Of a stretch of DNA of 51,070 bases, positions 1-51,070 are shown in pieces. Source of the DNA: Bacteroidota bacterium (GTDB lineage Bacteria > Bacteroidota > Rhodothermia > Rhodothermales > Bin80). The position numbers and the translations under genes are program-made. Under the pieces are notes generated by a model. The model ran no database searches. It saw nothing but the letters and a program-made list of their open reading frames with translations, and was not told the DNA's origin. The stretch spans positions 1 through 51,070 of the forward strand of contig JAPOUL010000104.1 of the NCBI GenBank assembly GCA_026708685.1, written 5' to 3'. Numbering within the stretch: position 1 is the first letter of the stretch; each line of letters starts with the position of its first letter.

Positions 1-51
1 GTTAACCAGTCATACTTGGTTCCAACCAGATCCAAAATGCCTTCTTTCTTC

Positions 52-512: not shown

Positions 513-553
513 CGTCAAGATTTCAGAATAGGACTTCTTGATCAAACATAAAC

Positions 554-10597: not shown

Positions 10598-10667
10598 ATC
10601 CAGTTTGCCGGGGTGCAACGCTTTCTTTGTATACTCGTAAGCATTCTGGTGATCTCCCTGCAAATCT

Positions 10668-12314: not shown

Positions 12315-12443
12315 AGGACTGCTATTCACGTGTTTCATGTCCTATTGATTTGTCCAGGGCAAGGATGTGGTGTCTTCCATTACCCACCTGGCTGTAAAGC
12401 GAACTTCCTGTCTACATGTTGATCAAAGAGTAGCATTCATTGA

Positions 12444-13406
12444 TCAATCACGGTCAGTAGCACGACTGGAAGCAAGTAAATACATGACGGCCATGCGGAC
12501 AGCCACACCATTGGTGACCTGATCAAGGATCACAGCCCGCTCATGCTCAACGACTTCATCATCAAGTTCAACCCCACGGTTAACGGGCCCCGGATGCAAT
12601 ACAATCAAATCCTGATGGATCTCCATATGTTCTGACGTGAGACCATACAGTGCGTTATATTCACGCAGAGAAGGCACCAGGCTGGCTCCAAAACGCTCCT
12701 GCTGAATACGAAGAGTCATTGCGACCTGACAGTCTTCAAGAGCCTCATCAAGGCGATGTGTCACGCGAACCCCTAGTTGTTCAATGGATACGGGTATCAG
12801 TGTCTGTGGGCCGCACAGGGTCACCTGAGCTCCAAGAGTTGTCAGTGCAAAGATGTTGGATCTTGCTACACGACTGTGGGCAATGTCTCCTATGATGGAC
12901 ACCCGCAGATTCTCAAAACGATCATAGTGTTCGGAAATGGTCAGCAAATCAAGAAGTGCCTGCGTGGGATGTTCATGTGCTCCATCTCCAGCGTTGATCA
13001 CACTCCCCTGAATGCATCGTGTCAGAAAATGCGCTGCCCCCGGAGAACTGTGGCGAATGATGGCCATGTCTACCTTCATTGCCTCAATATTTTGAGCAGT
13101 GTCTCTCAAGGTTTCACCCTTGGATAGGCTGGACCCTGATCCACCAAAATTGACCAGATCAGCTGACAGTCGCTTGGCAGCAAGTTCAAACGAGATACGC
13201 GTTCTTGTAGATGGCTCAAAAAAAAGATTCACAATCGTAAAACCGCGAAGCGTTGGAACACGCTTGATCGGACGTTCTAGGATTTCACGAAACTCTCTGG
13301 CGGTTTCAAGAATCAGAAAAATCTCCTCAACGCTGTAGGTGGAGAGCCCCAGTAAATGGCGATGCAGCAAAACTTGCGAACTGATGTTTGAATCTCCTAT
13401 GTTCAT
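12444..13406 (-). CDS. pyrB: Aspartate carbamoyltransferase catalytic chain
   Basis: The 320-residue protein joins carbamoyl phosphate and aspartate in the second step of pyrimidine synthesis. [19 protein letters not shown] is the carbamoyl-phosphate-binding STRTR motif. HPTQALLD and [15 protein letters not shown] are further ATCase signatures. The start ATG overlaps the pyrR stop by four bases (ATGA), so the two genes are translationally coupled. No regulatory chain (pyrI) follows, as expected when PyrR controls the pathway. pyrC and carAB are not in the window; pyrD lies separately at 33229. Confidence 0.95.
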
Positions 13407-13963
13407 TCGTCCTCTCCTCGTTCAATTAACCACACCCCATCATGATCATCAATTTCACTGAGCTGTACCCGAACTTCCTCACGAGATATGGTAGGCACAA
13501 CGCGACCGACCATATCGGCACGGATGGGTAGTTCACGGTGTTCTCGATCAATCAGAGTTAAAAACTGCAGCCGTGCTGGACGGCCTAAATCCGTGACTGC
13601 ATCCATAGCTGCACGAACGGTGCGCCCCGTGTACAAGACATCATCAACCAGAATCAGATGCCCACTGCTTACATTAAATGGAATGTTGGTGGATCGGATC
13701 TTGCGTGCACCTGATCTTCGTCGAAAGTCATCTCGATACATGGTCACATCAAGTGTGCCAAAAGGAACATTGATGCCCTCAAGTTCATAAATAAGCGTCT
13801 GAAGTCTCTTTCCAAGGTAAACTCCCCTTCGATGCAATCCTACAATAGCAATCTCGTGACTAGAATCCATGGACTCAATCACCTGCCGAGCCAATCTAGT
13901 AATGGTGCGGTGCACATCCTGTGCATCCATTAACTGTGCTTTAATGATTTCAGGCGGTTTCAT
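13403..13963 (-). CDS. pyrR: PyrR bifunctional pyrimidine regulator / uracil phosphoribosyltransferase
   Basis: The 186-residue PRTase-fold protein carries the PRPP-binding motif [19 protein letters not shown]. PyrR proteins bind pyr mRNA in response to UMP/UTP and usually keep weak uracil phosphoribosyltransferase activity. An in-frame TTG lies upstream at 13981, but the ATG at 13963 gives the usual family length and was chosen. It precedes pyrB with a 4-bp overlap. Only 42 bp separate it from the divergent DUF58 gene, and no anti-terminator/terminator pair was recognised there, so how it regulates pyrB here is unclear. Confidence 0.92.
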
Positions 13964-14005
13964 CCGTATAATGTAAGGCAATCATCGCTTTAACGCATCT
14001 CGTCC

Positions 14006-14944
14006 ATGAGAAATCCAAATTCTGAAAGTCCTCTCAAGTATTTAGATCCCGTCACTGTATCTCGGTTGAAGAACATGGAGATGCGTGCACGCTTGGTTGT
14101 AGAAGGGTTCATTACGGGCTTGCACAGGAGTCCCTATCATGGATTTTCTGTTGAGTTTGCAGAACATCGCTTATACAATCCAGGAGACGCTTTGCGCCAT
14201 GTGGACTGGAAAGTGTATGCCAAAACAGATCGATACTATGTTAAGCAATACGAAGAAGAAACCAATTTACATCATTATATCGTACTAGACACCTCGGCTT
14301 CCATGCAGTATCGCCATGCTGGTCAACTGTCCAAATTGGAATACAGCATTTATCTAGCGGCTGCACTTCATTTCTTGATGATCCAACAAAGGGATGCCAC
14401 GGGGCTCCTCTCCTTTGACTCTGAAATCCGTACCTTCCTGCGGCCACGAAGCACGATGCGGTATCTACGAGAAATTCTCATTCAGCTGGAACGTTTGGAG
14501 AACATCAATAGTGCAGAGAATTATACAGCAACAGCCCGTTCACTCCACCAGATAGCAGAACGGTTACGCAGACGATCACTGATTGTTGTCCTTTCCGATC
14601 TAATGGATGAAACCGACACGCACGACGACATCGTCCGTGCCTTGCAACACCTGCGGCACAGAGGACACGAAGTGCTCCTCTTCCGTATCCTTGAAAAAGA
14701 AACCGAAGCCCTGTTTCATCTCCCTGACCGCCCTATGATTCTGCGTGACATGGAATCTGGCGCTGAAATTGCACTCAATCCAGGTCAGTTGCGTCAGGCC
14801 TATTCCAAAAAGATGGAGTCCATCTCCAGCCGACTCCAGCGGCAATGCCGTAAACATTCGGTAGACTATGTTGAACTTGATACCGGCATTGCATACGATA
14901 CAGCACTGATGGCATACCTCAATAAGCGAAAAACGCTTCATTGA
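14006..14944 (+). CDS. DUF58 protein with vWA-like domain
   Basis: The 312-residue protein matches the DUF58 family: a conserved HVDWKVYAKTDRYYVKQYEEE core followed by a von Willebrand A-like fold. The metal-site motif is DTSASM (D95, S97, S99), and RRSLIVVLSDLMDE is the second conserved strand. Family members usually sit beside a MoxR ATPase and BatA/BatB membrane proteins, but none of those are adjacent here. No signal peptide or membrane segment is seen, so it is probably cytoplasmic or membrane-associated through partners. The M20 gene starts 3 bp after its stop, suggesting co-transcription. Molecular role is not established. Confidence 0.85.
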   Translation: MRNPNSESPLKYLDPVTVSRLKNMEMRARLVVEGFITGLHRSPYHGFSVEFAEHRLYNPGDALRHVDWKVYAKTDRYYVKQYEEETNLHHYIVLDTSASMQYRHAGQLSKLEYSIYLAAALHFLMIQQRDATGLLSFDSEIRTFLRPRSTMRYLREILIQLERLENINSAENYTATARSLHQIAERLRRRSLIVVLSDLMDETDTHDDIVRALQHLRHRGHEVLLFRILEKETEALFHLPDRPMILRDMESGAEIALNPGQLRQAYSKKMESISSRLQRQCRKHSVDYVELDTGIAYDTALMAYLNKRKTLH

Positions 14945-14947
14945 TCC

Positions 14948-16153
14948 ATGAAGATGGAACTCACTTCCACGATCAAGCATCTTGCGGAGGCGATTCAGCC
15001 TGAAATGGTTCGGATCCGAAGGGCGATTCATCGCAACCCGGAATTATCCTTTCAGGAATTTGAAACGTCGGATTTGATTCGGAGGGAGCTGGACAACTTC
15101 AACATTGAATATACCGACCCCAGTACGGAAACAGGTGTCATCGCTCATGTACGGGGAGCACATGCCGGCCCGACCATCCTTCTGCGTGCTGATATAGACG
15201 CTCTTCCCATCCATGAACAAACGGATTCACCGTTTATTTCAAAAAACTCTGGAGTGATGCATGCCTGTGGTCATGATATGCATACGGCATCCCTTCTGGG
15301 CTGTGGCTATATATTGCATCAATTACGCGAACATCTTAAAGGAACCATACGGCTCGTGTTTCAACCTGCTGAAGAAAAACTGCCCGGCGGGGCATCATCC
15401 ATGATTTCAGGGGGAATCTTGGATGCCACCGAAACTGAACGTGCACCGTCCTATTGCATTGCACAGCATGTGATGCCATCCTCTCCCGCTGGAACACTGG
15501 GGTTCCGCTCGGGGCCCTTCATGGCCAGTGCTGACGAGATCTATATTCGGATTGAAGCTGATGGAGGGCATGCTGCCAAACCAGAAGATCTATCTGCTGA
15601 TAGCATTCTAGTGGCTGCCCATATGATTGTTGCTCTTCAGAGCATCGTCAGCCGTACTATGCCCCCCGAAATCCCATCGGTACTGACAATCGGCAGAATT
15701 GAAGCGGACGGTGCGACCAACATCATTCCATCCAAGGTGTTGCTTGAAGGCACCTTTCGATGTTTTGATGAAAACTGGAGGCAGCAGGCGTGGGATCGGA
15801 TTCTCCAAGTGATTCATCACACCGCTACTGCATATGGTGCTGCAGTTGATGTTGACATCAAGAAAGGTTATCCTGGTGTGATCAATGATCCTTCACTGAC
15901 CAAACTGGCCCAGGATACTGCAGCCCATTACCTTGGACAGGATCAAGTAGAGATGGTGCCGATTTGGATGGCAGGTGAAGATTTTGCATATTTTTCCGAA
16001 AAATGTGATAGTTTATTGTATACTTTAGGAGTCGGTCCATCGGATGATTTGCATACTCCTACGTTTTGCCCTGACGAGTCAGCATTAGAGATTGGATCTG
16101 GGTTTATGGCATTCTTAACGAATCAGGCGATCCATAATCTAATTAAATCGTGA
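14948..16153 (+). CDS. M20-family amidohydrolase (hippurate-hydrolase-like)
   Basis: The 401-residue metal-dependent amidohydrolase belongs to the M20D group, which removes acyl groups from amino acids and related amides. Visible metal ligands and catalytic residues include C107 and H109 in MHACGHDMH, E142-E143 in QPAEEK, and H174 in AQHVMP, with AGEDFAYF and a late His in DDLHTPTF. A dimerisation domain lies between these regions. There is no signal peptide, so it is predicted to be cytoplasmic. The start could be ATG 14948 or ATG 14954. It follows the DUF58 gene with a 3-bp gap. The actual substrate cannot be read from sequence; candidates include hippurate, N-acetyl-amino acids and indole-3-acetyl-amino acids. 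Confidence 0.88.
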   Translation: MKMELTSTIKHLAEAIQPEMVRIRRAIHRNPELSFQEFETSDLIRRELDNFNIEYTDPSTETGVIAHVRGAHAGPTILLRADIDALPIHEQTDSPFISKNSGVMHACGHDMHTASLLGCGYILHQLREHLKGTIRLVFQPAEEKLPGGASSMISGGILDATETERAPSYCIAQHVMPSSPAGTLGFRSGPFMASADEIYIRIEADGGHAAKPEDLSADSILVAAHMIVALQSIVSRTMPPEIPSVLTIGRIEADGATNIIPSKVLLEGTFRCFDENWRQQAWDRILQVIHHTATAYGAAVDVDIKKGYPGVINDPSLTKLAQDTAAHYLGQDQVEMVPIWMAGEDFAYFSEKCDSLLYTLGVGPSDDLHTPTFCPDESALEIGSGFMAFLTNQAIHNLIKS

Positions 16154-16247
16154 ACATTTCGTATTTTAGTCCTACATTTGGCTTCTGAAGATGTAGCTGG
16201 CACATTAGATCAGCATTGCATTGAATTAACTCTTGACCTATTCATAT

Positions 16248-18824
16248 ATGGAGAGTACCTCCACAAATCGCACAAGCATCGTTGATCGTGCTGGTCAATT
16301 GATACGCAGGATTACGCCTCGGGCACGACGGCTTGCCACGGTCATTTTTCTCGCGAATGTGGCACTGATCATTATCACGGCACTTTCGATCTCCATCACT
16401 CAGATCACCAACTGGATTACCGCCTCACGAGATCAGGCACTTCAGAATGCAGAGGATACGGCAAGTCAATTATCCAAGGTTTATGCAGATATAGGGGAAA
16501 TTTCCATTGCAAGTGTTGCTCGGACTGCCGATGCCTCACTCAATGCACCGATGACGGCCCAAGCGTTTGCCGCTGCCTTCTTTGTCAAGGCCGCTGCTGA
16601 TGCAGACTATGACACCTCCAATGTGGTTGATCTGTTAACATCTATTACTGAAGAAACCGTCCTTGACGAGTTCTGGATTACCGACAGTACGGCGTTCTCC
16701 TATTTGACCAATGTGCGTGGCCCTGATGGCTCCCTGATTCCTTTTCAGTTTAAGATGAGTCCAAGTGAGCAGCCCCAGGCCTTCAAGTTCTATTCTCTCT
16801 TGAATGTTTCGCCCGATTCTTTTTCTGTGGTGACACAACCTGCACAGGTGAGAGAAGTGGATCGTGATGTCTACAAGTATGTGGCCACCAATGGTGTTGA
16901 CCATCGCCGCATTGTACAGGTTGGGAATCGATTGGACTTCGGTGATAGTGAGCTCTTGAGCCAGACCCATGCGGGTGTCAATGCAGATGTATCCGCTGTG
17001 ATTGAAGGAAACCTGTCCGCGAACATGAGAGTCATTGGGGTGATTCTGGATCACTATATCACCGCTGTGCGAAACGCTGGTTACAGTGATGAAAATATCA
17101 TTGCAGATCTTGAGAACATCATCACCCATACGGAGATTGGAGAAATTACCATCGCAGACCGTCAAAGTCGGGTGGATCATTTTGTGACCTCCTCTGGTGG
17201 CAGTTCGCTTACGACACTGCCCTTTCAGGACGAGATGGATGAGTTGTTTGTGGATCAGTGGATTGATCACAGTGGCATGAAGCCTCATCGTGGCGACTCA
17301 TCACTGTATAAATATGTAACCGTCGCTCGCCCACAAAGTGAGTATATTGTTCAGGTAGGACTCCCCATCGTACGAGGTGATAATGCCAGCATTCTCAATA
17401 CGGTCTATCAGGAACAGGCCAATGTCCTTGTGAGCGAAGGGTATCCAGAGGCATTGTGGTTTATTGACTCTGATGGTAACATTGCCGCAGCTGCCCAGCA
17501 TTCCGAGGCCAATGATATCATGGAGCTGCAGAGAGCATGGAGCCAACCCTATGATGAGCGCTCCAGATATTCTTCCGAAGTTGTTGCTGAAGCAAATCAG
17601 ACGGGGATGGCCAGTAGCAGAGCGTGGCTTGGATTGATTGCTCAACAGTCCGAGCGGGGATTATGGGTTGCTATGCCAGTTGCCATTGAAGATAACCGAA
17701 TCGGAACGGTGCTCGCTTTTATTAATCTTGATGAGACCGCATCTGAAATATGGTATGGAATGATCCAGACCCTCATCATCTCTCTGCTGCTACTAATCTT
17801 TACTGGATTTGCAACCTACATTGGAGCACGTTTACTCACTCGCCCCATTGAACAGATCGCCGAATCTGCCCGATTCGTTGAGAGTGGAGAGCAGCCCGAT
17901 GAGGACATCATCGGACCTGTCCTTGATCGGTCTGATGAAATTGGAGCACTCGCACGGGTCTTTCAGGATATGACCGTTCAGGTTTTCTCTCGTGAGGAAG
18001 TTCTGGAGACTCTGGTTTCTGAGCGAACCTCTGAGCTGGTCAATGCGAACAATCAACTTCGAGTCGCCCAACAGGCCATCAATCAGGATCTTCAGATGGC
18101 CATGGCCGTGCAGGCGGCTCTGGTTCAGGACGGAACTGCCGATCTTGAAACGTTTACTGCCAGTGCCCGTATGGAACCCGCACTGCAGGTTGGAGGTGAT
18201 TTTGTAGACTTTTTTGAGGATGGAGATTCTCTGATCTGCGTTGTCGGTGATGTGTCTGGAAAGGGTGTTGCCTCTGCTCTGTTCATGGCAGCATCACAGG
18301 CAGCCATCCGATTTGCAGCCAATGAGAGCAGCGATGTAGCAACGATTTGCCAGAGTGCAAACAATCGTATCTGTCAGCAGAACCCAATGGGACTTTTTGT
18401 CACCGTCTTTCTTGCAAGGGTCAACTTGAAGACGGGTGAACTTACGTATGTATCTGCAGGCCATGAGCCTCCGTATCTAATGGACGGCGAAAAGCGTACA
18501 ATGCTGCCTGGAACAGGTGGGGTTGCTATGGGTGTACTTGATGGAATTGAGTACTCCAAGAAAGTCATTCAAATGGAGCACAACGAGGTTTTATTTTGTT
18601 ACACTGATGGATTGACCGATATGGTGAATCTCGCTGGTGAGATCTATGGAAAAAATCGCCTTGAACTTGCCTTGGATGGATTTCCAAAATTTGATCCAGT
18701 GGAGATTCTGGATCATGTCTGGAATGACATCATGGACTTCTCTCGTGGTGCTGCGGCAGCAGATGATCGCACGTGTTTGGTCCTTTATCGAAAAGATTCT
18801 TCCACTCAAACAGAGACAACATGA
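16248..18824 (+). CDS. Membrane sensor SpoIIE-type serine phosphatase
   Basis: The 858-residue protein is a membrane-bound PP2C-type phosphatase expected to dephosphorylate the STAS protein encoded downstream. A first membrane helix spans about 29-50. A large extracytoplasmic sensor (about 55-500) follows, then a second helix at about 505-528, a HAMP linker, a short coiled coil, and a SpoIIE/PP2C domain from about 640. Metal-binding acidic residues are D651 in GGDFVDFF and D668 in GDVSGKG, with DDRTC near the end. The sensor contains two related halves (YKYVAT...RIVQVG and YKYVTV...YIVQVG), which suggests a double-Cache-like fold. ATG 16248 was preferred over TTG 16233. It overlaps the next gene by ATGA. 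The signal sensed is unknown. Confidence 0.88.
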   Translation: MESTSTNRTSIVDRAGQLIRRITPRARRLATVIFLANVALIIITALSISITQITNWITASRDQALQNAEDTASQLSKVYADIGEISIASVARTADASLNAPMTAQAFAAAFFVKAAADADYDTSNVVDLLTSITEETVLDEFWITDSTAFSYLTNVRGPDGSLIPFQFKMSPSEQPQAFKFYSLLNVSPDSFSVVTQPAQVREVDRDVYKYVATNGVDHRRIVQVGNRLDFGDSELLSQTHAGVNADVSAVIEGNLSANMRVIGVILDHYITAVRNAGYSDENIIADLENIITHTEIGEITIADRQSRVDHFVTSSGGSSLTTLPFQDEMDELFVDQWIDHSGMKPHRGDSSLYKYVTVARPQSEYIVQVGLPIVRGDNASILNTVYQEQANVLVSEGYPEALWFIDSDGNIAAAAQHSEANDIMELQRAWSQPYDERSRYSSEVVAEANQTGMASSRAWLGLIAQQSERGLWVAMPVAIEDNRIGTVLAFINLDETASEIWYGMIQTLIISLLLLIFTGFATYIGARLLTRPIEQIAESARFVESGEQPDEDIIGPVLDRSDEIGALARVFQDMTVQVFSREEVLETLVSERTSELVNANNQLRVAQQAINQDLQMAMAVQAALVQDGTADLETFTASARMEPALQVGGDFVDFFEDGDSLICVVGDVSGKGVASALFMAASQAAIRFAANESSDVATICQSANNRICQQNPMGLFVTVFLARVNLKTGELTYVSAGHEPPYLMDGEKRTMLPGTGGVAMGVLDGIEYSKKVIQMEHNEVLFCYTDGLTDMVNLAGEIYGKNRLELALDGFPKFDPVEILDHVWNDIMDFSRGAAAADDRTCLVLYRKDSSTQTETT

Positions 18825-19243
18825 TTACAGGAGATTTCAACGTTCAAATTTCGGCCCGCGTATCCGAGTTGCATGATCTTGCAGCAATGGTAGAAACCTT
18901 TGGGGAAGCCCAGGAGCTCCCCAATCGGACCGTATTTATCATCAACCTTGCCCTAGAGGAATTAGTCACCAATACGCTGGTTCATGGTGTCTTTGACGAC
19001 GGGGTTGAACCCAAAATCAAAATCAACCTGACAGCTTCTAAGCAGCATGTCACTGTCGTGGTTGAGTCCAACGGTGGAGCGTTTGATCCTACCGAGGATT
19101 CCAATCCAGATACGACCAGCGAGTTGGCAAACCGTCCGATCGGAGGTCTTGGCTTGCATCTTGTCAAGGCACAGGCGGATGGATATTCCTATGAGTTTAT
19201 TGATGGCATCAATCGACTCACTTTGGAATATAATACCGCATAG
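18821..19243 (+). CDS. RsbW/SpoIIAB-like anti-sigma serine kinase
   Basis: The 140-residue GHKL-ATPase protein fits the anti-sigma kinase of a partner-switching pathway: it would phosphorylate the STAS protein and hold a sigma factor or other target. The N-box is ALEELVTNTLVHG (E47, N51) and the G2 region is GGLGLHLVK. In the G1 box the usual Asp is replaced: the sequence reads VVVESNGGAFDP with Ser at residue 83 where D-x-G is expected. The ATG at 18821 overlaps the phosphatase stop (ATGA), giving strong coupling; an upstream in-frame ATG at 18773 lies inside the phosphatase gene and is rejected. Whether it still binds ATP normally is open. Confidence 0.85.
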   Translation: MITGDFNVQISARVSELHDLAAMVETFGEAQELPNRTVFIINLALEELVTNTLVHGVFDDGVEPKIKINLTASKQHVTVVVESNGGAFDPTEDSNPDTTSELANRPIGGLGLHLVKAQADGYSYEFIDGINRLTLEYNTA

Positions 19244-19251
19244 TTCTTATA

Positions 19252-19280
19252 TTGAACTTTATTCTATTCATTTGTTAAAT
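19252..19280 (+). promoter_or_regulatory. Possible sigma-70-like promoter for STAS gene
   Basis: TTGAAC (19252-19257) and TTAAAT (19275-19280) are separated by 17 bp and lie 29 bp before the STAS start codon, in the only sizeable gap of this module. It could provide extra STAS protein independent of the upstream genes. Rhodothermota promoter rules are not certain, so this is tentative. Confidence 0.35.
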
Positions 19281-19309
19281 CAACATATCACCACTTGGAG
19301 GAACCATCT

Positions 19310-19663
19310 ATGGCCAGTAATATTGACGTACAAGAAGAACGCGAAGGAGATGTTCTTATCATGATCCCCGTTGGACGGATCGACAGTTCCAATGCTCCCA
19401 TTTTTGAGCGCTTGGTCAAAGATCGCATTGACGATGGAGAGACAAAAATCGTTGTTGACTTCACCAAGCTATCCTTTATCAGTAGTTCGGGAATGCGTGT
19501 GCTGTTGATTGGGGCGAAAAATATTCAGTCTAATCAAGGCAAACTCGTTCTCTGTAGCATGCGAGATAGCATTCGTGAGATCTTTAGTATTAGCGGGTTT
19601 GATACAATTATTCCCGTTGTGCAGGATCGTATCGCCGCCATTGATCTCCCCTTGACCGGTTAG
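19310..19663 (+). CDS. STAS-domain anti-sigma factor antagonist
   Basis: The 117-residue single-domain STAS protein is of the SpoIIAA/RsbV type. The conserved region KIVVDFTKLSFISSSGMRVLL contains the phospho-acceptor loop; by alignment to DSSG in SpoIIAA the acceptor is probably S59 (loop residues S58-S59-S60-G61). Unphosphorylated, it should bind the kinase encoded upstream and release that kinase's target. The ATG at 19310 was chosen because GGAGG lies 8-9 bases before it; the frame extends further upstream to 19295 without support. With the phosphatase and kinase it completes a partner-switching set. No sigma factor is adjacent; the ECF-type gene at 42838 is remote and no link can be claimed. 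Confidence 0.92.
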   Translation: MASNIDVQEEREGDVLIMIPVGRIDSSNAPIFERLVKDRIDDGETKIVVDFTKLSFISSSGMRVLLIGAKNIQSNQGKLVLCSMRDSIREIFSISGFDTIIPVVQDRIAAIDLPLTG

Positions 19664-20386
19664 GTTCTGGTGGTATTCCACCACGCTGTACTCTTGCTGA
19701 AGCACCTTTAATGGTTGAGCTGTCGGGGGCTTTCCCTAACAATCTAATGGGTTGCTTCTCCAGTATCTACGAATGCTCCTGTGGCTGGAGTATCCTGTTG
19801 TCTTTGATCCATCATGATGCGTTATGATTGGTGAACTCACTGCTGGACATGTACCTGTCAGAGTTCCATGTCAGAAGGAATATGTGTGAGGTGCATGATC
19901 GCGTTACTCTCTGCGGCCATGTTCCTGATCCTGCTACTTCTCATTGATAACACATCAACATGAGTAACAATATGCCGCATTTGTAGTGATCTTTCCCTCC
20001 AGAACTTAGATGTTCTTCATCCGAGTTTGTCAAGTGTAGGCATATTTTTCTTCTTCAAGGCATGGCTTGCCTTTCGTGGTACTCGGATTTTGATGGAAGT
20101 TGTCATGTGATGTGGGCAATTCCTAAGGGGACTGAAAGATGATGCCGCTGAAGAAAGGAGGTCCAGTCATCCAAGGGTAGGCTCAGGGAAAAGATGAACG
20201 AACTCTGCGAAAGGGGTAGGTTGCTAAGAGAATGTTTGAGATGATGATTCAGTCCCTGCCAGATTGCATGTCGTTCTGATACGATGCTATAGTTTGGTCA
20301 AGAAAGTTTCTTTGTCATGGAGGTTTCCATCATGATCCACAACGGATCCAAAGTGTTAGGCAACCGAGCAGATTCGAGATACATCT
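19664..20386. other. 723-bp stretch without a recognisable gene
   Basis: Neither strand shows a convincing coding frame or a known RNA. Short protein-like scraps occur (for example MMPLKKGGPVIQG on the plus strand, interrupted at once by stops), consistent with old eroded sequence. The plus-strand frame opening at 20317 runs antisense into the S9 peptidase gene and is rejected. It separates two convergent transcription units. Confidence 0.45.
19668..19683. terminator. Weak hairpin after STAS gene
   Basis: TGGTGG-TATT-CCACCA forms a 6-bp stem with a 4-nt loop 5 bases after the STAS stop codon. It has no T-tract, so a terminator role is only suggested by position. Confidence 0.3.
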
Positions 20387-37798: not shown

Positions 37799-37873
37799 CG
37801 TTTAGGACATTCCATCTTCTTCATCTGGTGATCCAGTGACCTATTCCTTGATTCTCTACTCATGTATGCAGAT

Positions 37874-40084
37874 ATGAAAAATCAAAATTCTACTCTTCGT
37901 CTACTCGCTTGCTTTCTGCTGGCGATGATGCTCCACGAGAGCCCTCTGGCTCAGGAAGCACGAAACCTAACCGTTGGGCCTTTGCAGTACAACACCAATG
38001 AAGCGATGACCGATGATGCATTATCGTGGCCTGTCGGACGCCCTGTTGGTGGGGGGCGATTATCAATGCTTTCTGTCAATACCGTTGTGATTGGTGTGGA
38101 ACGGACCTGGACGGATGCTACTGGGGTTGTTCGTGACATTCAAGTCGCCCAGATTGGACGACATAAATTTTCAGATATAGAACTGGTGACTCCCCCCGTT
38201 GACGGGGCCTTCACACGGACGTTTCGTTCTCAATATCCTTCCAAGATACTGGACGGCACCGACTGGGCCAATGCACAGGCTAAGGGGGATCCAGTCGATC
38301 AAAATCTTCCTGCTGATGGTGTCATTTATACCCACCTCAATACATGGACGGGCATTGATATTGAACGTTGGGTTTACGGTTTTGCAAACGATGACCATGA
38401 TGACTATTTGATCATGGAGTATCGCTTTACCAATGTTTCTGGTCAAGTTCGCAATAATGTCTATTTTGGACTTCAGGCACAGACCCATGGAAGTGCCTAC
38501 TATCCCGCTGATATCTGGGGAAATTACTATGGGGCTACCTATGCCAGTTATGCTGGTGGGGACACCTCTGCAGATTCACTACGGCTCTGGTATTCATGGG
38601 ACGCTGATCAGACCAGTAATACAACCGAAGATACACGGGGGAAGCCGCATCCTCGTTGGGGGCATTTTCAGGAACCCCAGTTTTTTGGTACGGTGGTCCT
38701 GCATGCTGACACTTCTCCGTCCGATGAAACCGATGATCCATCACAGCCACTGAAGGCGGGTTGGTCACAGCGTGAACTGGCCCCAGACCTGAATGTTGCT
38801 GGTCACGAGGATATCTACAATTATCTTTCCAAGGGATGGGATTCAGCCAATCCTGGTGCCTATGGTGTCACAGTTGACAATACGGGCACGATTGTTTCGG
38901 AGGGATCCTACCGTATTCTTGATCCCAGTCTTGGCCCCTCAGGTGACCCAAGTGTGGACATCAACAACACCACACAGTTTGATCCGCTCACGGAGCAGGA
39001 AAAAACATCGTTGTTCAGTTTCGGTCCCTACACACTCAACCCAGGTGATGACATACGTATCGTAACGGCTTATGTGGGCGGAGAGATTCCCTACCGATGG
39101 GCGATTGATGCCGGAGCGGCGTACTCCAATGGGAATCCCCAACAGCTCTCTCCAGTGCCGCTACCGTACCCCGTGCCGAACTACGGGAGCAATTATCTCA
39201 ACCCATTGGGCTCTGATGAACTGGATGCTATCCGTACCTATTTGGGAGGGCAGACGGTTGCCTCCCAAGGCGCAACGCTGGATAGAGAAACCAAAAATGC
39301 TGTGTTGGATCTGGGTAGGCCATTGCTCTTTCTTAATGCTAGCAAAGCGGTTCGTACATGGAAAAATGGCAATGTGAAGTACGGAAAAGGATCCTTTGAT
39401 ATTCCACTTGCTCCCTCAACCCCTTCCCTCACTGGCATGTCAGAGAATGATCAGATTCGTCTCAACTGGGGTAATGAGGCGGTGGAGGATACGCGGAGTG
39501 GGACGGTTGTCAACTATCGGATTTATCGTGAGGCGATTCGCCCCGCAGCTCTTGAAACACCAACCGATACCACATTTGTGCTTCATGAGGAGCTTCCCTC
39601 TAGTGCGAGAGAATATGTCGATAATCGTGTTACAAGGGGAGAAGATTATTATTACTATGTGGTTGCAGTCAACGCAGATGGGGTAGAGGGAAGTCGATTC
39701 TTGAATCGCACGGGCGTGACCAGTGATAAGTTTCTGGAGGCATTGACTCCTACCCGTTCGCCTGATGCGAACTGGCAGAATAATGTGGTGGTGGTCCCCA
39801 ATCCCTACCATGCTCAGGGAGCTTTCAATTACGAGGAGGCTCGTCGCTTGACCTTCCTCAATCTACCGGCATATGCCAATATTCATGTGTATACAGTGAC
39901 GGGGGATCGGGTGCAAACGATTGAACACACCTCGGGCACGGGTGATGCCGATTGGGAGCGTCAGCAAACCTTCAGTACCACCCAAATTGTCAGTGGAATT
40001 TATATCTATGTTGTGGAGGAACTCAGTGAGTCAGGAAGCCCAACAGGAAATCAGGCCATCGGCAAGTTCGTGGTCATCAAATAG
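37874..40084 (+). CDS. Secreted FN3-like protein with T9SS-type C-terminal domain
   Basis: The 736-residue protein starts with a signal peptide (LLACFLLAMMLHESPLAQ). Most of the body is unrecognised, with repeated FGLQAQTHG, YYGATYASY and similar aromatic-rich strands. An FN3-like module lies near residues 515-615 (LNWGNEAVEDTRSG, YYYYVVAVNADGVEG). The last about 90 residues, beginning VVVVPNPYHAQG and ending GKFVVIK, fit the type A sorting domain that directs proteins through the type IX secretion system. ATG 37874 (MKNQN) was chosen over ATG 37862, which adds only MYAD. It lies between a TonB receptor and a PorV/PorQ gene, in keeping with cell-surface export. Enzymatic activity, if any, is not apparent. 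Confidence 0.78.
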   Translation: MKNQNSTLRLLACFLLAMMLHESPLAQEARNLTVGPLQYNTNEAMTDDALSWPVGRPVGGGRLSMLSVNTVVIGVERTWTDATGVVRDIQVAQIGRHKFSDIELVTPPVDGAFTRTFRSQYPSKILDGTDWANAQAKGDPVDQNLPADGVIYTHLNTWTGIDIERWVYGFANDDHDDYLIMEYRFTNVSGQVRNNVYFGLQAQTHGSAYYPADIWGNYYGATYASYAGGDTSADSLRLWYSWDADQTSNTTEDTRGKPHPRWGHFQEPQFFGTVVLHADTSPSDETDDPSQPLKAGWSQRELAPDLNVAGHEDIYNYLSKGWDSANPGAYGVTVDNTGTIVSEGSYRILDPSLGPSGDPSVDINNTTQFDPLTEQEKTSLFSFGPYTLNPGDDIRIVTAYVGGEIPYRWAIDAGAAYSNGNPQQLSPVPLPYPVPNYGSNYLNPLGSDELDAIRTYLGGQTVASQGATLDRETKNAVLDLGRPLLFLNASKAVRTWKNGNVKYGKGSFDIPLAPSTPSLTGMSENDQIRLNWGNEAVEDTRSGTVVNYRIYREAIRPAALETPTDTTFVLHEELPSSAREYVDNRVTRGEDYYYYVVAVNADGVEGSRFLNRTGVTSDKFLEALTPTRSPDANWQNNVVVVPNPYHAQGAFNYEEARRLTFLNLPAYANIHVYTVTGDRVQTIEHTSGTGDADWERQQTFSTTQIVSGIYIYVVEELSESGSPTGNQAIGKFVVIK

Positions 40085-40095
40085 GAAATTGTCTC

Positions 40096-41145
40096 ATGAG
40101 AAATATCAAAACTATCGTACTTGGCACCATACTCATTGCTTTGATTGGTGCTCATCCAGCGATGTCACAGGCTGTGAAATATGCTCAGGCTGGATTAAGT
40201 TATTTGCAGATCGCTCCTTCTGCGGATGTTGCTGCGCTTGGCGGCACCTATGTGTCAACCACGGGGAAAGCTACATCTGTCTTTTCGAATCCTGCTGGGT
40301 TGGGTCTCTTGCGTGGAGCCGATGTCAGTGCTGGCTATGTTGCATGGATTGCAGATATTGCTCTGTATAGCATGGCTGGCGCATATCACATTGAAAATGT
40401 TGGCGTTTTCGGGGTGAATTTGGTGAGTATGGATTATGGTTCATTGCGGGGAACCCGTCCTTGGCAATCGGGGGATGACCCCTCTTTACGAGATCAGGGA
40501 TACATTGACCTTGGAGATTTTACGGTCAATGATTTTGCGTTTGGCATTTCGTATGCACGCTCGATTACGTCGCAATTTTATGTCGGCGGCAATGTCCGTT
40601 ATGCCCGTCAGGATTTGAGTCCCAACATCAATGTTGCCATTATTGATGCGATTACGGGCGGTATTGTTGACAATAGTGAGAATGTGGTGACCAATGTCGT
40701 TTTTGACTTTGGTACGCTCTACTATCCGGGATTTCATGATTTACGGTTTGGGGCATCGTTGCGCAACTTCTCCAATCAGAGTGATTATTTTGATCAGCGG
40801 TTTGAATTGCCTCTTACTCTGGACTTTGGGCTAGCGATGGATGTCTTTCAGTTAATGAACGAGGCTTCTGGCCCCAGCAACAGCAAGCTGACCGTTGCCA
40901 TGGATTGGGTCCATCCGCGTGACTACTCGGAGCGTTTGCACCTGGGAGTAGAATATGGATTCATGGATTTATTTTTTCTACGGGGTGGATACAAGTTCAA
41001 TTACGATGAGGAGAGTTTCACGGGTGGACTGGGAGTTCATCTTGAAACAGGAGGATATGGTCTCCGTGCCGACTATGCTTACTCTGCGTTTGGTGACTTT
41101 TTTGGCTCTGCCAATCGACTGTCTGTGTCACTGCTCATGAAATAG
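40096..41145 (+). CDS. PorV/PorQ-family outer-membrane protein
   Basis: The 349-residue protein has a signal peptide (IVLGTILIALIGAHPAMSQA) and a FadL-like 14-strand barrel pattern. The N-terminal segment (FLQIAPSADVAALGGT-like, here YLQIAPSADVAALGGTY; then FSNPAGLG) is diagnostic of the PorV/PorQ family, which shuttles T9SS cargo to the attachment complex. It starts 11 bp after the T9SS-type protein gene, so the two are surely co-transcribed and are likely partners (inference). Core T9SS genes are not in the window. Confidence 0.85.
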   Translation: MRNIKTIVLGTILIALIGAHPAMSQAVKYAQAGLSYLQIAPSADVAALGGTYVSTTGKATSVFSNPAGLGLLRGADVSAGYVAWIADIALYSMAGAYHIENVGVFGVNLVSMDYGSLRGTRPWQSGDDPSLRDQGYIDLGDFTVNDFAFGISYARSITSQFYVGGNVRYARQDLSPNINVAIIDAITGGIVDNSENVVTNVVFDFGTLYYPGFHDLRFGASLRNFSNQSDYFDQRFELPLTLDFGLAMDVFQLMNEASGPSNSKLTVAMDWVHPRDYSERLHLGVEYGFMDLFFLRGGYKFNYDEESFTGGLGVHLETGGYGLRADYAYSAFGDFFGSANRLSVSLLMK

Positions 41146-44785: not shown

Positions 44786-44836
44786 GACACACAGTTGAGA
44801 AGACTTGTCTCTGTACCAGTATTGATTTTGGCAGAC

Positions 44837-47617
44837 ATGGTATACAAGATCGCAGGCAGTCGGCTTTCAGCACTATGGTTTGTGTGCGTGTATGGTCTAT
44901 TTGCTGGTTCTGTTCTGGGGCAAGATGCCATTGTACGTGGTCGTGTAACGGATTCCCAAACGGGCGAGCCTTTGGTTGGCGCGAATGTAGTCGTCATCAA
45001 TACGCCCATTGGAAGTTCAACAAATACAGACGGGCAGTTTGTTTTCTCCATTGAGCCGGGCAGTTATCGTCTTCGGGCCAGCTTTATTGGATATTCTTCA
45101 GTGGAACTGCAGGTCACTCTCGCTAGTGGAGATACTCATCAATGGAATCCCCAACTGGTTCAGGGAACGAACCTTGATCCTATCCAAGTGACTGCAGGTC
45201 GCCGTCAGGAAAAAGTACTGGATGCCCCTGCGTCCATAGATGTGATCACTGCACGCGAAATTCAGGGAGATGTGACCCAAACCACGGCCCGATCCTTACG
45301 TAATATCACGGGGTTGGATATCGTGCAGACGGGTGTCGATCGCTATGAAATCGCCCTTCGGGGATTCAATAATGTTTTCTCAAGATCCACCCATGTCTTG
45401 ACGGACTATCGTAAAGCAGGTGCAGCATCCATCGGCGTCAATCTTCATAATGTGATGCCCAATCTCGCCATTGATACCGATCGAATTGAGATCGTTCGGG
45501 GTCCAGGATCTGCACTCTATGGGCCTGGGGTTGATTCGGGAGTGATTCATTATTTTTCGAAGGATGCTTTTGACTCTCCTGGAATGACCCTTTCCATGAG
45601 TGGTGGGCAACGCTCAAGTCTCAATCTGCAGGGTCGTTATGCAGCTGTGCTGGGGAAGAGTGTTGGCTTGAAAGTCGTGGGAAGTTATGCGAGGTCGGAA
45701 GATTTTATCCTGCAGGAATGTGACCCTGAACTTCTTGAGGCGGAGAGGTTCAAAGAATGCCCTGATGAACATGATGCCATTCAGCTATTTGTGGATGGAC
45801 CTCGGGATCCCATGCACCGAAAATTTGTAGGCTATGCGGGTATTGATCTGCGATTAGGAACACAAACCAGACTCTCTTTCAGTGGAGGACTGAGCCATCT
45901 TAATGGGACGGTGCTCAGCAGTCTTGGCACGGTTCAGGCAAGGGATATGATTGCGATCTACGCTCAGATAAGGATGACCAGCGGACCGGTCTTTGTGCAG
46001 GCATATCTCAATACCATTGATTCAAGAGAGTCGTACATTTATGGTGGGGGGATCATCGGGGAGTCATCGGAGGAAGTGACTGTTCAAGGTCAGTATACGA
46101 AGCAGATCGGTTCTTGGGTGGACATCACTGCCGGGATTGATCTAACATTGGAGCATATCGATAAACTTGGGGCTTATTTCCAATCTACAGCTAGGATAAC
46201 GGATCGGATGGAACTGACTCTTGCTTTACGAGGGGACTATAACAATGTGGTCACGAATCTGCATCTGTCTCCTCGGGTTGCTCTTGTGGTGAAGCCGACA
46301 CCATCTTCAAGCCTTCGCACAACCTATAACCGAAGCCTGTCGTCTCCTCTGGCGACTGATTATTTTTTGAATCTGGTCGCAGCCACTCTTGGACAGCTCA
46401 ATGTACGAGCACGCGGAGGTGGTACAGGGTTTACCTTTGACCGTGATCCATCGTATCTAGATTTGGGTGCACCGACTTCACTGGTTGCTTCAAGCCTGCT
46501 TCCGGGAAGAGAAGGAACACCAACTCCGGTAGGAATTGAGACAGGAACGCTGTATCAATTGATTTACGAGGGACTCATTGCCATTGCTGAACCAGACCTA
46601 TTGCGTTTACTTGAAGAAAATAACATTCGTATTCCATCTGCATTGTTATCACGATTGACGGATCAGTTAAGTCCAGAGAACATTCAGGTTCAGGGGTTTA
46701 GTCCAGGAGTCCTTGGGCTTCCCAATCTGAGCACCCTTGAGATTGAGCCACGCTCAGACTTGCATCAACTTCAAGATGTGGGCCCCATCCAGCCTGCCAT
46801 CACTCAGACATGGGAGGTTGGATATAGGGGAATTCTTGATCAAGCAGTTGTGTTTTCGGTGGACGGGTATTATGCACGACGCAAGAACTTTACTGGTCCC
46901 CTTCAGGCTTTGACTCCATTTGTTGTCATCCCTAATTTACAGCGTGATTTGATACGCGATCTGGCAGCAGGTTTAAATCAGAACGATGAAATTGGTCTCC
47001 TGTTACGAAGTTTTGGGCTGACACCAGAATCAGTTGCTGAACTGATTGTAGATCTTGCTGGTGATGATTTGCCCGATGGTGAAACGCCAGTCGCCATTGT
47101 TCAACCCAACGAAAATAACCCCGGAGTAGGGGCGTACCCCGAACTCATGCTGAACTTTCCGAATTTTGGAAACATCCAATACTTTGGTGTGGACCTGTCG
47201 GCATCGGTGATCCTCAGTGATCAACTGAGTTTTTTCGGGAATGCCTCATGGGTGAGTGATGACTATTTTGATCATACTGAACTCAGCGAAGAAACTGAAG
47301 AAATTGAGTTAGCACTCAATGCACCGGGTCTGAAGTTCAAGTTGGGCGGACAGTACCAGCATTCAGGTGGGCTTTCTGTGATGGCTTCGGGTAGATTCAT
47401 TTCGGGATTTCCAGTTCTTGCGGGTCAGTATATTGGTGATGTTCCGCGATATCAGGTCTTTGATCTTGGGCTCGGTTACTCCATCAAACGTTTGGGGATC
47501 CGTGCTGATATTGCTGTCAATAATGTATTGAACAGTCAACATCGAGAGTTTATAGGTGCTCCTCGGCTGGGAAGAGTGATCATGGCAAGATTAACCTATA
47601 CAACCTCTAGTCGTTGA
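44837..47617 (+). CDS. TonB-dependent outer-membrane receptor
   Basis: The 926-residue protein has a signal peptide (LSALWFVCVYGLFAGSVLG). A carboxypeptidase-regulatory-like domain (GRVTDSQTGEPLVGANVVV) follows, then a plug (VLDAPASIDVITAREI, IEIVRGPGSALYGPGVDSG) and a barrel. Long loop-rich insertions occur around residues 540-640 and 690-760, which probably face outward. The C-terminus ends MARLTYTTSSR without the usual terminal aromatic residue. ATG 44837 was chosen because it places the signal peptide correctly; a TTG at 44795 is possible but less likely. The substrate is unknown. It follows purB and may be part of the same transcript. Confidence 0.88.
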   Translation: MVYKIAGSRLSALWFVCVYGLFAGSVLGQDAIVRGRVTDSQTGEPLVGANVVVINTPIGSSTNTDGQFVFSIEPGSYRLRASFIGYSSVELQVTLASGDTHQWNPQLVQGTNLDPIQVTAGRRQEKVLDAPASIDVITAREIQGDVTQTTARSLRNITGLDIVQTGVDRYEIALRGFNNVFSRSTHVLTDYRKAGAASIGVNLHNVMPNLAIDTDRIEIVRGPGSALYGPGVDSGVIHYFSKDAFDSPGMTLSMSGGQRSSLNLQGRYAAVLGKSVGLKVVGSYARSEDFILQECDPELLEAERFKECPDEHDAIQLFVDGPRDPMHRKFVGYAGIDLRLGTQTRLSFSGGLSHLNGTVLSSLGTVQARDMIAIYAQIRMTSGPVFVQAYLNTIDSRESYIYGGGIIGESSEEVTVQGQYTKQIGSWVDITAGIDLTLEHIDKLGAYFQSTARITDRMELTLALRGDYNNVVTNLHLSPRVALVVKPTPSSSLRTTYNRSLSSPLATDYFLNLVAATLGQLNVRARGGGTGFTFDRDPSYLDLGAPTSLVASSLLPGREGTPTPVGIETGTLYQLIYEGLIAIAEPDLLRLLEENNIRIPSALLSRLTDQLSPENIQVQGFSPGVLGLPNLSTLEIEPRSDLHQLQDVGPIQPAITQTWEVGYRGILDQAVVFSVDGYYARRKNFTGPLQALTPFVVIPNLQRDLIRDLAAGLNQNDEIGLLLRSFGLTPESVAELIVDLAGDDLPDGETPVAIVQPNENNPGVGAYPELMLNFPNFGNIQYFGVDLSASVILSDQLSFFGNASWVSDDYFDHTELSEETEEIELALNAPGLKFKLGGQYQHSGGLSVMASGRFISGFPVLAGQYIGDVPRYQVFDLGLGYSIKRLGIRADIAVNNVLNSQHREFIGAPRLGRVIMARLTYTTSSR

Positions 47618-47973: not shown

Positions 47974-50900
47974 TCATTTGACGCTCATAAAATGTCCGAC
48001 ATAGACCGAAGAAGACCTGTCATCCAAAGATGTTGCACGAATCCGATACAGATACGCGCCGGAAGGCAAATTCAGATCGCTGAGTAGCATTTCATGTCCC
48101 CATCCTGCGGTGAGATACTGCGATGGGGTTGACACCAATCGCCTCCCAGTAACATCCATGACTTCCACCTGCACCTGTGCAGGCCACGGAAGATCAAAGA
48201 CCAGATTTGTGGAACTATGGAAAGGATTCGGGTAATTGGAATACCCTCTTAGCTCTTGGGGTATCCCCGGATTTTCATCTGTATGAACCGGAGAGATGAC
48301 ACCAATGCTGAATAAGAGACTATCCTGTGCCCCATGATGATCCGTCGCTTTGTAGGTCAGAGAGATCGGTGGAGTAATTTCCAATGGGGTTCCACTGATC
48401 GTACGGGTCGCAAGATCAAATTTCAGGTAATACGGAAGATCCAACAGCGTAAGGGTATACTGGATGGGAGGCACTCCTCCTGTCACCTCTGGAAGCACCA
48501 GAGGATCAATGACCTGCCCTCGCGGATAGGATTGGTTGGGTACGGTTTCGGTAAAGGTGATGGTATATACTTCCATCTCAAAGTCCAGTTTGCTGCTGGT
48601 CCCCGCACGATCCTTCACGGTATAGGTATAGACCTTGGAGTCCGTCACTTCGGAGGGCGTTCCGCTGAGCGTACGCGTCTCTGCATCAAAGGCGATCCCT
48701 TTGGGAAGGTCCGGGGTTAGGGCGTACACATAGGGTGGTGCCCCTCCCATGGCGTTGGGCAAGACAAGATCAGCAATCGCTTTTCCGACAGGATATATTT
48801 GATCTGCAACCGAGTCTGCAAGGGCTAAGTCTGGTGGCACAATGACTTCTATGGTGAATGTCTGTATCGCCGTGGCATTATCGTCATCGGTGACCGTATA
48901 TGTATAGGTGGTTACAGACATGCTCGCTGAGGAGGTTCCACTGATGGATCGCGTGGAAGCATCAAACTCAAGTCCTGCAGGCGGATCTGGCGTGAGAGCA
49001 AAACGATAGGGCGGTGTTCCACCTACGGCATCTGCAAGCACCACCTCATCAATGGGTACTCCCACAATAAAAGATTGATTAGGGATCGTCTCTGCAAACG
49101 TCAGTGGAGGCACATCAGGATCGTCATCATCGACAATGGTCAGCGTGTAAACACTTTGACTTCCTATGTCATATCCTGTACCGCTGGTCAGTGTTACGAT
49201 GATCGTCTCGTCCGATTCGTCGACTTGATCATTGGTGATCGCAATGGAGAGATTCGCTGATGTCGCATTGGCAGCCACCGTAAGAGAGCCTGCTCCCTGA
49301 GTGGTGTAATCAGTCGTTTGGGTGGCCGTACCTCCCAGAGAATACAGCACCGTGAGTGAACTTGTGGGGGCGGGATTTACATTGATCTGAACCGCTACCG
49401 TGGCTACATTTTCGTTGACCTGAGAAGACGCTACAACAAACGAGACAACGATATCAGTTGTCGTTCCCGATGTGGTTGTGGTAGCACTGTCTACATCGGA
49501 TGGTAGACTTTCAAGTCCCTCTGCGTTGATGGCATAGACCCTGTAATAGCGGGTACTCCCTGCCGTCAATCCTGTATGGGAGTAGGTGGTTTCGCTGTGA
49601 CTTGCGACCAGATCTGTCCAGTTAGTGCCTCCATCATCTGACACTTCAATCCGATATCCTCTGATGGACGCACCTCCCATACTGGATGGAGCACTCCACG
49701 ATAGATTAATGATGGTTTGCCCCGATGCTGTCGCGCGGAGTGATCTCGGGGCAGTTGGAGCCGTGGCCGTGGGGGTAGCAGTTGTCGCATTGGCTGTATT
49801 GGACACTGGACCTCTTCTACCAACAGAGTTGATTGCACTGACACGATAGTAACGGGTGGTGCCAGGGGCCAGGCCGGTGTGCGAATAGCTGGTAATGGTA
49901 TGACTTGATACCAGTATTGTAGTAAAATCAATTCCGTCTGCGGACACCAGAATACGGTAGCCGCTAATGGGTGCACCGCCCGTAGTTCTCGGAGCGCTCC
50001 AACTCAGATGGATGATTGTTTGTCCAGAGGCGGTTGCCGTGAGCTCCGTTGGTGCATCAGGAAAGGTGGCCGTGGCCGCACCGGTCGTGGCATTAGCTGT
50101 ATTGGACCATGGACTATTGCCTTCCGAGTTGATGGCACGCACCCGGTAGTGACGAGTGTCGCCAGCACTTAGGCCGGTGTGCGAATAGGTGGTCGCGCTC
50201 TGACTTGCCACCAGTTGCGAGAAATTGGTTTCACCGTCTGTAGACACCTCAATCCGATAACCGCTGATTGCCGCGCCGCCATTCCTTGCCGGAGCGGTCC
50301 AACTCAGGTAGATGGTGGTTTGCCCAACAGCCGTCGCCGTCAATGATCTCGGGGCTGTCGGAGCCGTAGCCGCATCGGTGGTGGCATTGGCTGTATTGGA
50401 CCATGCACTATTGCCAACCGCGTTGATGGCACGCACCCGGTAGTGACGGGCTGAGCCAGCACTGAGGCCAGTATGCGAATAGCTGGTCGTGCTCTGACGT
50501 GCTACCAGTTGCGAGAAATTGGTTCCCCCGTCGATAGACACCTCAATCCGGTAGCCGCTGATTGCCGCACCGCCGTTACTTGCCGGAACGGTCCAACTCA
50601 GATTGATGATCGTTGATCCATCAGCCGTTGTCGTGAGCGAAATCGGTGCACCCGGGACAGTCGCCGTGCGTGTAGCAGTTGTCGCATTGGCTGTATTGGA
50701 CACTGGACCTCTTCTATCAACAGAGTTGATTGCACTGACACGATAGTAACGGGTGGTGCCAGGGGCCAGGCCGGTGTGCGAATAGCTGGTTGTGGTATGA
50801 CTCGACACCAGTATTGTAGTAAAATCAATTCCGTCTTCGGACACCAGAATACGGTAGTCGCTAATGGGCGCACCGCCCGTATTTCTCGGAGCGGTCCAAC

Positions 50901-51069
50901 TCAGGTTGATGATGGTTTGTCCAGAGGCGGTTGCCGTGAGTTCCGTTGGTGCATCAGGAAAGGTGGCCGTGGCTGCAACGGTTGTCGCATTCGCCGTATT
51001 AGACCATCCACTATTACCTACCGAGTTGATGGCACGCACCCGGTAGTGACGGGCAGTGCCAGCGGTCAA
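47974..51069 (-). CDS. Large FN3-repeat surface protein with T9SS sorting domain (5' end outside window)
   Basis: At least 1031 residues are visible; the start lies beyond the window. In order there is one partial FN3 repeat, five full FN3 repeats of about 98-100 residues each (SYSHTGL and NTANATT recur), and a Calx-beta-like domain (about 530-650, acidic VDESDETI). Three putative Ig-like (He_PIG type) domains follow (IPNQSFIVG, VADQIYPVG and VPNQSYPRG, each with a SGT motif), then a C-terminal T9SS type A sorting domain (YPNPFHSSTNLVFDLP to the end). It is predicted to be exported and displayed on the surface for adhesion or matrix binding (inference). FN3-rich proteins are common in host-associated bacteria, but no host claim can be made. 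A hairpin lies just after the stop. Confidence 0.88.
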   Translation of the reverse strand: MTAGTARHYRVRAINSVGNSGWSNTANATTVAATATFPDAPTELTATASGQTIINLSWTAPRNTGGAPISDYRILVSEDGIDFTTILVSSHTTTSYSHTGLAPGTTRYYRVSAINSVDRRGPVSNTANATTATRTATVPGAPISLTTTADGSTIINLSWTVPASNGGAAISGYRIEVSIDGGTNFSQLVARQSTTSYSHTGLSAGSARHYRVRAINAVGNSAWSNTANATTDAATAPTAPRSLTATAVGQTTIYLSWTAPARNGGAAISGYRIEVSTDGETNFSQLVASQSATTYSHTGLSAGDTRHYRVRAINSEGNSPWSNTANATTGAATATFPDAPTELTATASGQTIIHLSWSAPRTTGGAPISGYRILVSADGIDFTTILVSSHTITSYSHTGLAPGTTRYYRVSAINSVGRRGPVSNTANATTATPTATAPTAPRSLRATASGQTIINLSWSAPSSMGGASIRGYRIEVSDDGGTNWTDLVASHSETTYSHTGLTAGSTRYYRVYAINAEGLESLPSDVDSATTTTSGTTTDIVVSFVVASSQVNENVATVAVQINVNPAPTSSLTVLYSLGGTATQTTDYTTQGAGSLTVAANATSANLSIAITNDQVDESDETIIVTLTSGTGYDIGSQSVYTLTIVDDDDPDVPPLTFAETIPNQSFIVGVPIDEVVLADAVGGTPPYRFALTPDPPAGLEFDASTRSISGTSSASMSVTTYTYTVTDDDNATAIQTFTIEVIVPPDLALADSVADQIYPVGKAIADLVLPNAMGGAPPYVYALTPDLPKGIAFDAETRTLSGTPSEVTDSKVYTYTVKDRAGTSSKLDFEMEVYTITFTETVPNQSYPRGQVIDPLVLPEVTGGVPPIQYTLTLLDLPYYLKFDLATRTISGTPLEITPPISLTYKATDHHGAQDSLLFSIGVISPVHTDENPGIPQELRGYSNYPNPFHSSTNLVFDLPWPAQVQVEVMDVTGRRLVSTPSQYLTAGWGHEMLLSDLNLPSGAYLYRIRATSLDDRSSSVYVGHFMSVK

Positions 51070-51070
51070 G
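49775..51070. repeat. 897-bp-offset higher-order FN3 repeat
   Basis: Sequence at about 49775-50173 recurs at about 50672-51070 with an exact 897-bp offset (three FN3 units) and, by eye, roughly nine in ten bases identical. For example, CAACAGAGTTGATTGCACTG recurs at that spacing. The modules run B-A-B-B-A-C by sequence subtype from the N-terminal side, so a multi-repeat block was duplicated. The upper copy is cut by the window edge. Within it, two B units repeat at 294 bp. Confidence 0.7.

Follow-up and report, generated by a model that had tools for sequence, protein, structure and literature searches.

A modular FN3-array gene of an uncultured Bacteroidetes genus as one member of a putatively phase-variable, recombining family of T9SS-sorted surface proteins

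The window, that is, the whole stretch of DNA analysed here, is one complete contig (C23, 51070 bases) of the genome G000 (3.83 Mb, 170 contigs, 99.64% complete), which was compared with nine other genomes of the same genus. Its right end is occupied by a minus-strand frame of 1031 aa, which has its stop at 47974 and is still open at the contig end (ORF listing). The 5' end of the gene is missing, the contig stopping at 51070, inside an array of FN3 domains. Gauged against a relative of 1510 aa, the portion in the window would be roughly the 3' two thirds of the gene. The features of the locus are collected in Table 1.

Table 1 Features of the truncated FN3-array gene and its surroundings in the window
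Feature	Coordinates	Strand	Basis
Truncated gene: partial FN3, 5 FN3, Calx-beta, 3 He_PIG, T9SS type-A CTD	47974..51069	-	ORF and domain profiles
Partial FN3 (type B), truncated at the contig end	50959..51069	-	Domain profile/comparison
FN3 type A, first copy (A1)	50656..50958	-	Domain profile/comparison
FN3 type B	50362..50655	-	Domain profile/comparison
FN3 type B	50062..50361	-	Domain profile/comparison
FN3 type A, second copy (A2), 897 bp from A1	49759..50061	-	Self-offset, domain comparison
FN3 type X; G008 gives way about here to own paralogs and G007 as nearest relatives	49471..49758	-	Window-wise comparison, tree
Calx-beta domain	49120..49461	-	Domain profile
Three He_PIG domains	48286..49110	-	Domain profile
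T9SS type-A sorting domain	47977..48285	-	TIGR04183, 29.3 bits; Pfam PF18962, 21.6 bits
Contig end within FN3 array	51070..51070	.	Contig record
TonB-dependent receptor, convergent neighbour	44795..47617	+	ORF and domain match

The C-terminal sorting domain matches TIGR04183 at 29.3 bits, above the NCBIfam cutoff of 23; the Pfam profile PF18962 reaches 21.6 bits on the same domain, under its cutoff of 27. Two components of the T9SS machinery, PorU (953.7 bits) and SprA (1700.1 bits), were searched for in G000, and both were found over cutoff. An earlier note on this DNA had proposed a surface protein; the sorting domain above the NCBIfam cutoff, together with SprA and PorU in the genome, supports that proposal, the product being a predicted T9SS-sorted surface protein. 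The note mentioned neither the strand of the gene nor its truncation. No recognised adhesive domain was found with Pfam in the visible part of the gene, where stalk-like domains are present; the top-scoring F5_F8_type_C match falls on sequence that is also assigned to an FN3 domain. Elsewhere in the window, the stretch 37862-41145 encodes a 740-aa protein that weakly matches the in-house CTD profile (12 bits) and, next to it, a 349-aa outer-membrane-like protein; Pfam gave no match there at 1e-4.

The purB-TonB pair that flanks the window gene is kept in four relatives (G002, G005, G006, and G007), and none of these four carries an FN3-family gene beside the pair in the stretches of 13.8 to 19 kb searched with in-house profiles (frames of at least 100 aa). 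The window gene itself belongs to a large family of paralogs, and the sequence shared within this family coincides with contig breaks. The number of FN3 domains, counted with an in-house profile, varies among the paralogs and the members from other species: at least six, including the partial one, in the window gene, 8 in C57, and 12 in C108 of the same genome, 9 in G007:C121, 10 in G007:C118, and 11 in G008:C121, which is cut by its contig end. Of 16 genomes of the family, six (G000 among them) have DNA matches to the FN3 array; these six belong to the same genus, and the match in G009 is weak. Broken family copies also occur in G000, for example, C39, which contains several stops, and C55, which retains the 3' part only.

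Among all self-offsets from 30 to 1999, the best for the window gene is 897, which is the sum of three FN3 lengths (303+294+300). This repeat is real and not a product of chance, but the repeated block does not consist of three near-identical domains. When identity at the 897-bp offset is followed in 30-nt bins from 51040 to 50681, 11 of 12 bins hold 26 to 30 identical bases and one holds 23; bins below 50681, to about 50411, hold 15 to 22, and identity is at chance level from 50410 on. The high-identity stretch (approximately 51040-50681 against 50143-49784) thus comprises A1 and short adjoining parts of the domains on either side, which amounts to no more than about 1.3 FN3 domains. A1 and A2, which are not adjacent, are 93.4% identical at the nucleotide level (pS 0.134, dS 0.147); the next pair of domains in the repeat (W_3 and W_6) is about 62% identical, and the third position is without a copy, a Calx-beta domain occupying that place. 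Therefore, of the three-FN3 blocks with high identity that the earlier note had described, the offset stands and the high identity shrinks to about 1.3 domains. The note had also seen subtypes recurring in order; the B-A pair does occur twice, but it is the sole combination to do so in the order (B)-A-B-B-A-X, and the third position does not repeat. Adjacent full FN3 domains of the gene are 59 to 83% alike, with 58.7% between A2 and the following X domain and 82 to 83% among the B domains (pS 0.32 to 0.46). A single clean duplication of three domains was rejected because identity falls to chance along the offset.

Comparison with the other genomes revealed that the FN3 part and the C-terminal part of the gene have different closest relatives. 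In 150-nt windows over positions 0 to 1200 from the contig end, that is, across the array to A2, the best other locus is G008:C121, with up to 146 of 150 bases identical, although several of these windows match the repeat within the gene just as well or marginally better. Beginning with the X domain, the best matches are C75, C170, and C55 of the same genome or genes of G007. The window array is 86% identical to G008 over 928 nt, and the C-terminal part is 82.2% identical to C75, 80.6% to G007a, and 60.2% to G008. The trees of the two parts disagree: G008_9 groups with W_2 on a very short branch (support 100) in the FN3 tree, and G008 lies far from the window gene in the C-terminal tree. At the level of sequence, the window gene is a mosaic, with an FN3 part like that of G008 and a C-terminal part like those of its own paralogs and G007.

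Core genes served as a control and were saturated in 20 of 20 cases, with pS of 0.73 to 0.84 (best matches in the fetched stretches: G007 for 11 and G008 for 9). Core DNA matches longer than 1 kb from positions 1-20000 of the window are 67 to 74% identical, a few short ones being higher. The long stretches beside the G008 gene are 68% identical to G000, for which reason a misbinned piece of G000 was rejected as the origin of the G008 contig. In these comparisons, pieces of the family show much higher identity across species of the genus than the core genes do. For example, C170 is nearer to G007:C121 (85.3%) than to C75 of its own genome (79.5%), and C124 is 90.1% identical to G007:C95 at the nucleotide level over 332 codons, with no other protein match between the fetched stretches of these two (frames of at least 150 aa). 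The nearly equal pS (0.098) and pN (0.100) of the latter pair would fit relaxed or diversifying selection. Two further candidates were tried and discarded. A phage origin of the FN3 block was rejected after one scan of IMG/VR, in which none of 7 pattern matches was a confirmed relative; the idea that C124 directly continues the window gene as its 5' half was rejected, the ends of the two being without a shared stretch (the longest sequence common to their 400-nt ends is 30 nt and internal).

The best surviving alternative to exchange between loci is ordinary growth of a stalk, in which a recent unequal crossover within one surface gene would have duplicated an A-B-B unit of 897 bp. Its exact register and the 93.4% identity of A1 and A2 are what such growth would leave, and recent tandem FN3 copies of 95 to 97% nucleotide identity are present in other family genes, namely, G007:C121 and C57. 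Near-identity is, however, confined to one domain of the unit, the B domains of the window having diverged as given above; furthermore, another species, G008, has an A domain at an equal or smaller distance from A1, and a B-A-B-B' row of FN3 domains of its own. The A domain of G008 is 94.1% identical to A1 at pS 0.073, compared to 0.134 between A1 and A2, although the counts of shared sites (13, 11, and 6) are close to a trichotomy, so that the lower pS to G008 carries little weight when taken alone. Since A1 has a counterpart in another species that is no more distant than A2, and the gene is a mosaic, the earlier note's recent block duplication within the gene is not supported as the main event, and stalk growth as the whole explanation appears unlikely, if still deserving serious attention.

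A second feature of the family lies at the starts of its genes. Ten family genes in two genomes (G000 and G007) carry a tract of 9 to 13 C after a leader that resembles a signal peptide (judged by eye, in the relatives only), and the leader is in frame with the body in six of them and out of frame in four. The G000 genes are in frame in C7 (13 C), C128 (10 C), and C85 (9 C) and out of frame in C81 and C88 (9 C each) and C124 (11 C); C7 and C128, where 24 codons are visible after the tract, were assigned to the family by 97 to 100% identity over 70 nt with C88. In G007, the genes of C119 and C91 (10 C each, found by protein search with the post-tract part) are in frame, as is the full-length gene of C121, in which the leader and the FN3 part share a frame; leader and FN3 part are in different frames in both C124 and G007:C95. 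An in-frame tract encodes three to four prolines, and both wrong frames after the tract reach a stop within a few codons. The out-of-frame copy in C81 meets another stop after 82 codons; given this second stop, and C39 broken at several places, the out-of-frame copies could be plain pseudogenes.

How the tract genes were found bears on their number. A scan of G000 for C runs of at least 9 on either strand yielded 33 places, compared to about 10.6 expected from independent bases at 46% G+C; 30 of the 33 were given loci (six of them FN3-family starts), one more lies inside such a locus, and those in C158 and C162 were left out. Five of the six tract genes of G000 and two of the four of G007 came from searches that favour the tract or adjoining sequence. 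Among the six starts found by FN3 similarity alone, the tract is present in three (C124, G007:C95, and G007:C121) and absent in three (C57, C108, and G007:C118). The probability of three in six from the density of tracts is 4e-8, but this figure is too small, because C124 and G007:C95 are near-copies at the tract and hence not independent. A family fragment with an internal stop in G007:C85 has no C6+AT3 run.

The tract also marks where some copies begin to be alike. C124 and G007:C95 have unrelated DNA upstream to the C run and identity directly after it, and C88 and G007:C119, which do not match upstream, are 97.2% identical over 428 nt once the tract begins, its first C included; the sequence shared by each pair thus has the same edge. 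C128, for its part, matches G007:C119 at 99.3% over 301 nt and G007:C91 at 97.3% over 488 nt, and has the leader and 200 to 400 nt upstream in common with both; the one further match of C128 to the fetched parts of these two contigs (297 nt at 74%) lies near the other end. By these alignments, the tract is one edge of shared sequence and not the sole one. G007:C119 and G007:C91 are near identical in upstream DNA, leader, and tract, and 85% identical over the whole match, as after gene conversion of the 5' end.

Long tracts in G000 extend beyond this family. The common flank consists of C9-13 followed within 3 nt by T5 or longer, often with TA before it. This T5 flank follows 20 of 31 C/G tracts of at least 9 (loci L162-L191), compared to 0 of 56 runs of C5-6 in the window; 14 of 25 tracts have it when the six FN3 genes, which share the flank by descent, are removed. 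Restriction-modification genes are a usual class of phase-variable genes. G/C tracts of 9 to 11 were found in or at the edge of such genes (Pfam and PADLOC matches) at L172, L176, L182, L183, L188, L189, and L163, located in C79, C85, C118, C121, C136, C144, and C8 of G000, respectively. The types represented are Type ISP, EcoRI-type methylase, type III-like methylase, N6_N4 methylase, and HSDR_N; L183 and L188 appear to be out of frame, and phase-variable methylation is possible for the tract-bearing genes of this kind. C tracts of 16 (G005:C30, L145) and 12 (G006:C9, L137) lie just before signal-peptide-like starts of other proteins. An extreme low-complexity G/C stretch with N in G002 (C3:10119-10450, L133) probably arose as an artefact of sequencing or assembly; because this stretch of C3 inflates the number of tracts in G002 (213), that count was left out. 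A G8 run at 25598 of the window was dropped from the tract candidates, as the frame containing it is presumably that of an arginyl-tRNA synthetase.

All of these comparisons depend on the assembly, which the earlier note had warned may be unreliable in this region. The warning was well founded: the contig ends within the gene, and two other contig ends share exactly 55 nt (C59 and C112; C121 and C84 share 53 nt). For five contigs (C59, C112, C142, C121, and C84), the first base falls in the final 100 nt of a family gene, compared to 0.15 to 0.53 such contigs expected for 17 to 60 family genes. Short-read contigs of co-occurring species might accordingly have been misjoined at shared repeats, creating false mosaics and false identity near contig ends. 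Such artefacts would suit the contig breaks on shared repeats of 55 and 53 nt, the location of the 97 to 99% matches at contig ends, and the ends of C7 and C128 about 72 nt past the tract inside a shared stretch; moreover, none of the six tract genes of G000 is farther than about 1.4 kb from a contig end, where chimeric joins are likeliest. Many of the shared pieces are, however, 80 to 94% alike, which is not strain level, including the match of the window array to G008, and the complete gene of G007:C121, whose C-terminal part has the 85.3% match to C170, sits inside an 89.9-kb contig. Misassembly as the general explanation is therefore judged improbable, though for the tract edges of G000, which are close to contig ends, it is a serious contender. 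Still less credible is that the C tract is a mere proline-rich linker, with length differences that are harmless or assembly noise, for although an in-frame tract does encode prolines, 4 of 10 copies are out of frame, both wrong frames stop almost at once, and other G000 tracts of at least 9 lie in restriction-modification genes.

The explanation that we find the most probable, with appreciable room for doubt, is a phase-variable, recombining family of modular T9SS-sorted surface proteins, of which the window gene would be one member. Slipped-strand mispairing at the C tract would decide whether leader and body share a reading frame, and so whether the gene is translated. The FN3 arrays and the bodies would be shuffled by homologous recombination, both among repeats and among loci; the T9SS would place the product on the surface, where the FN3/Calx/He_PIG array would act as a stalk, an adhesive fibre, or a binder. 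The population would thereby vary the choice and the length of the fibres it displays, perhaps where it meets an animal host. For the window gene itself, whose own start lies off the contig, a C-tract switch is an extrapolation from its relatives.

A bolder and distinctly speculative extension is a contingency system of two layers. The tract would not only switch genes but also serve as a join that moves bodies between promoter/leader heads and between species of the genus, such that a common pool would supply cells with new surface fibres; the signature of C9-13, A, and T5-8, often with TA first, would mark switches in restriction-modification genes as well. If the family is indeed switched and shuffled, its members would represent a changing repertoire rather than fixed genes, and gene counts from short-read MAGs would scramble them. 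How uncultured bacteria vary their surface would, furthermore, become testable from raw reads.

Homopolymeric tracts close to the 5' end make genes such as Neisseria opa and pilC phase-variable. That tracts of this kind slip when they lie near the start of a gene is well established (PMC2831843). Such phase-variable genes resemble the present family in that the tract of the relatives lies just after a signal-peptide-like leader and out-of-frame copies stop early. Unlike them, the present genes form an FN3 family with T9SS sorting domains in an uncultured Bacteroidetes genus, known here from assembled sequence alone, and the tract is in two pairs also an edge of shared sequence.

Other systems share the architecture. 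In sponge-associated MAGs, according to passages of Robbins 2021 (PMC8163846), FN3-containing genes are enriched and laterally transferred, and the class Rhodothermia is named there for fibronectin-binding proteins; array mosaicism or a phase switch is not described in these passages. A sponge derivation of the window genome is only a lead, provided by the isolate label of a relative. Searches of the literature on phase variation in sponge symbionts or in Bacteroidota surface proteins brought up no such family among the papers listed. Fibrillar adhesins and FA-like proteins, as presented in parts of PMC8286594, are likewise long multidomain proteins with repeated domains; the window gene differs in having a T9SS sorting signal and no sortase anchor, and no recognised adhesive domain in the part seen. 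Periscope Proteins, in the corresponding passages of Whelan 2021 (PMC8201768), are also surface proteins with tandem folded domains, some with repeats of high DNA identity, and their repeat number differs between genes. In contrast to these proteins, the window gene has FN3 domains whose identity to their neighbours is no more than 59 to 83%, and the stronger signal is shuffling between genes and species.
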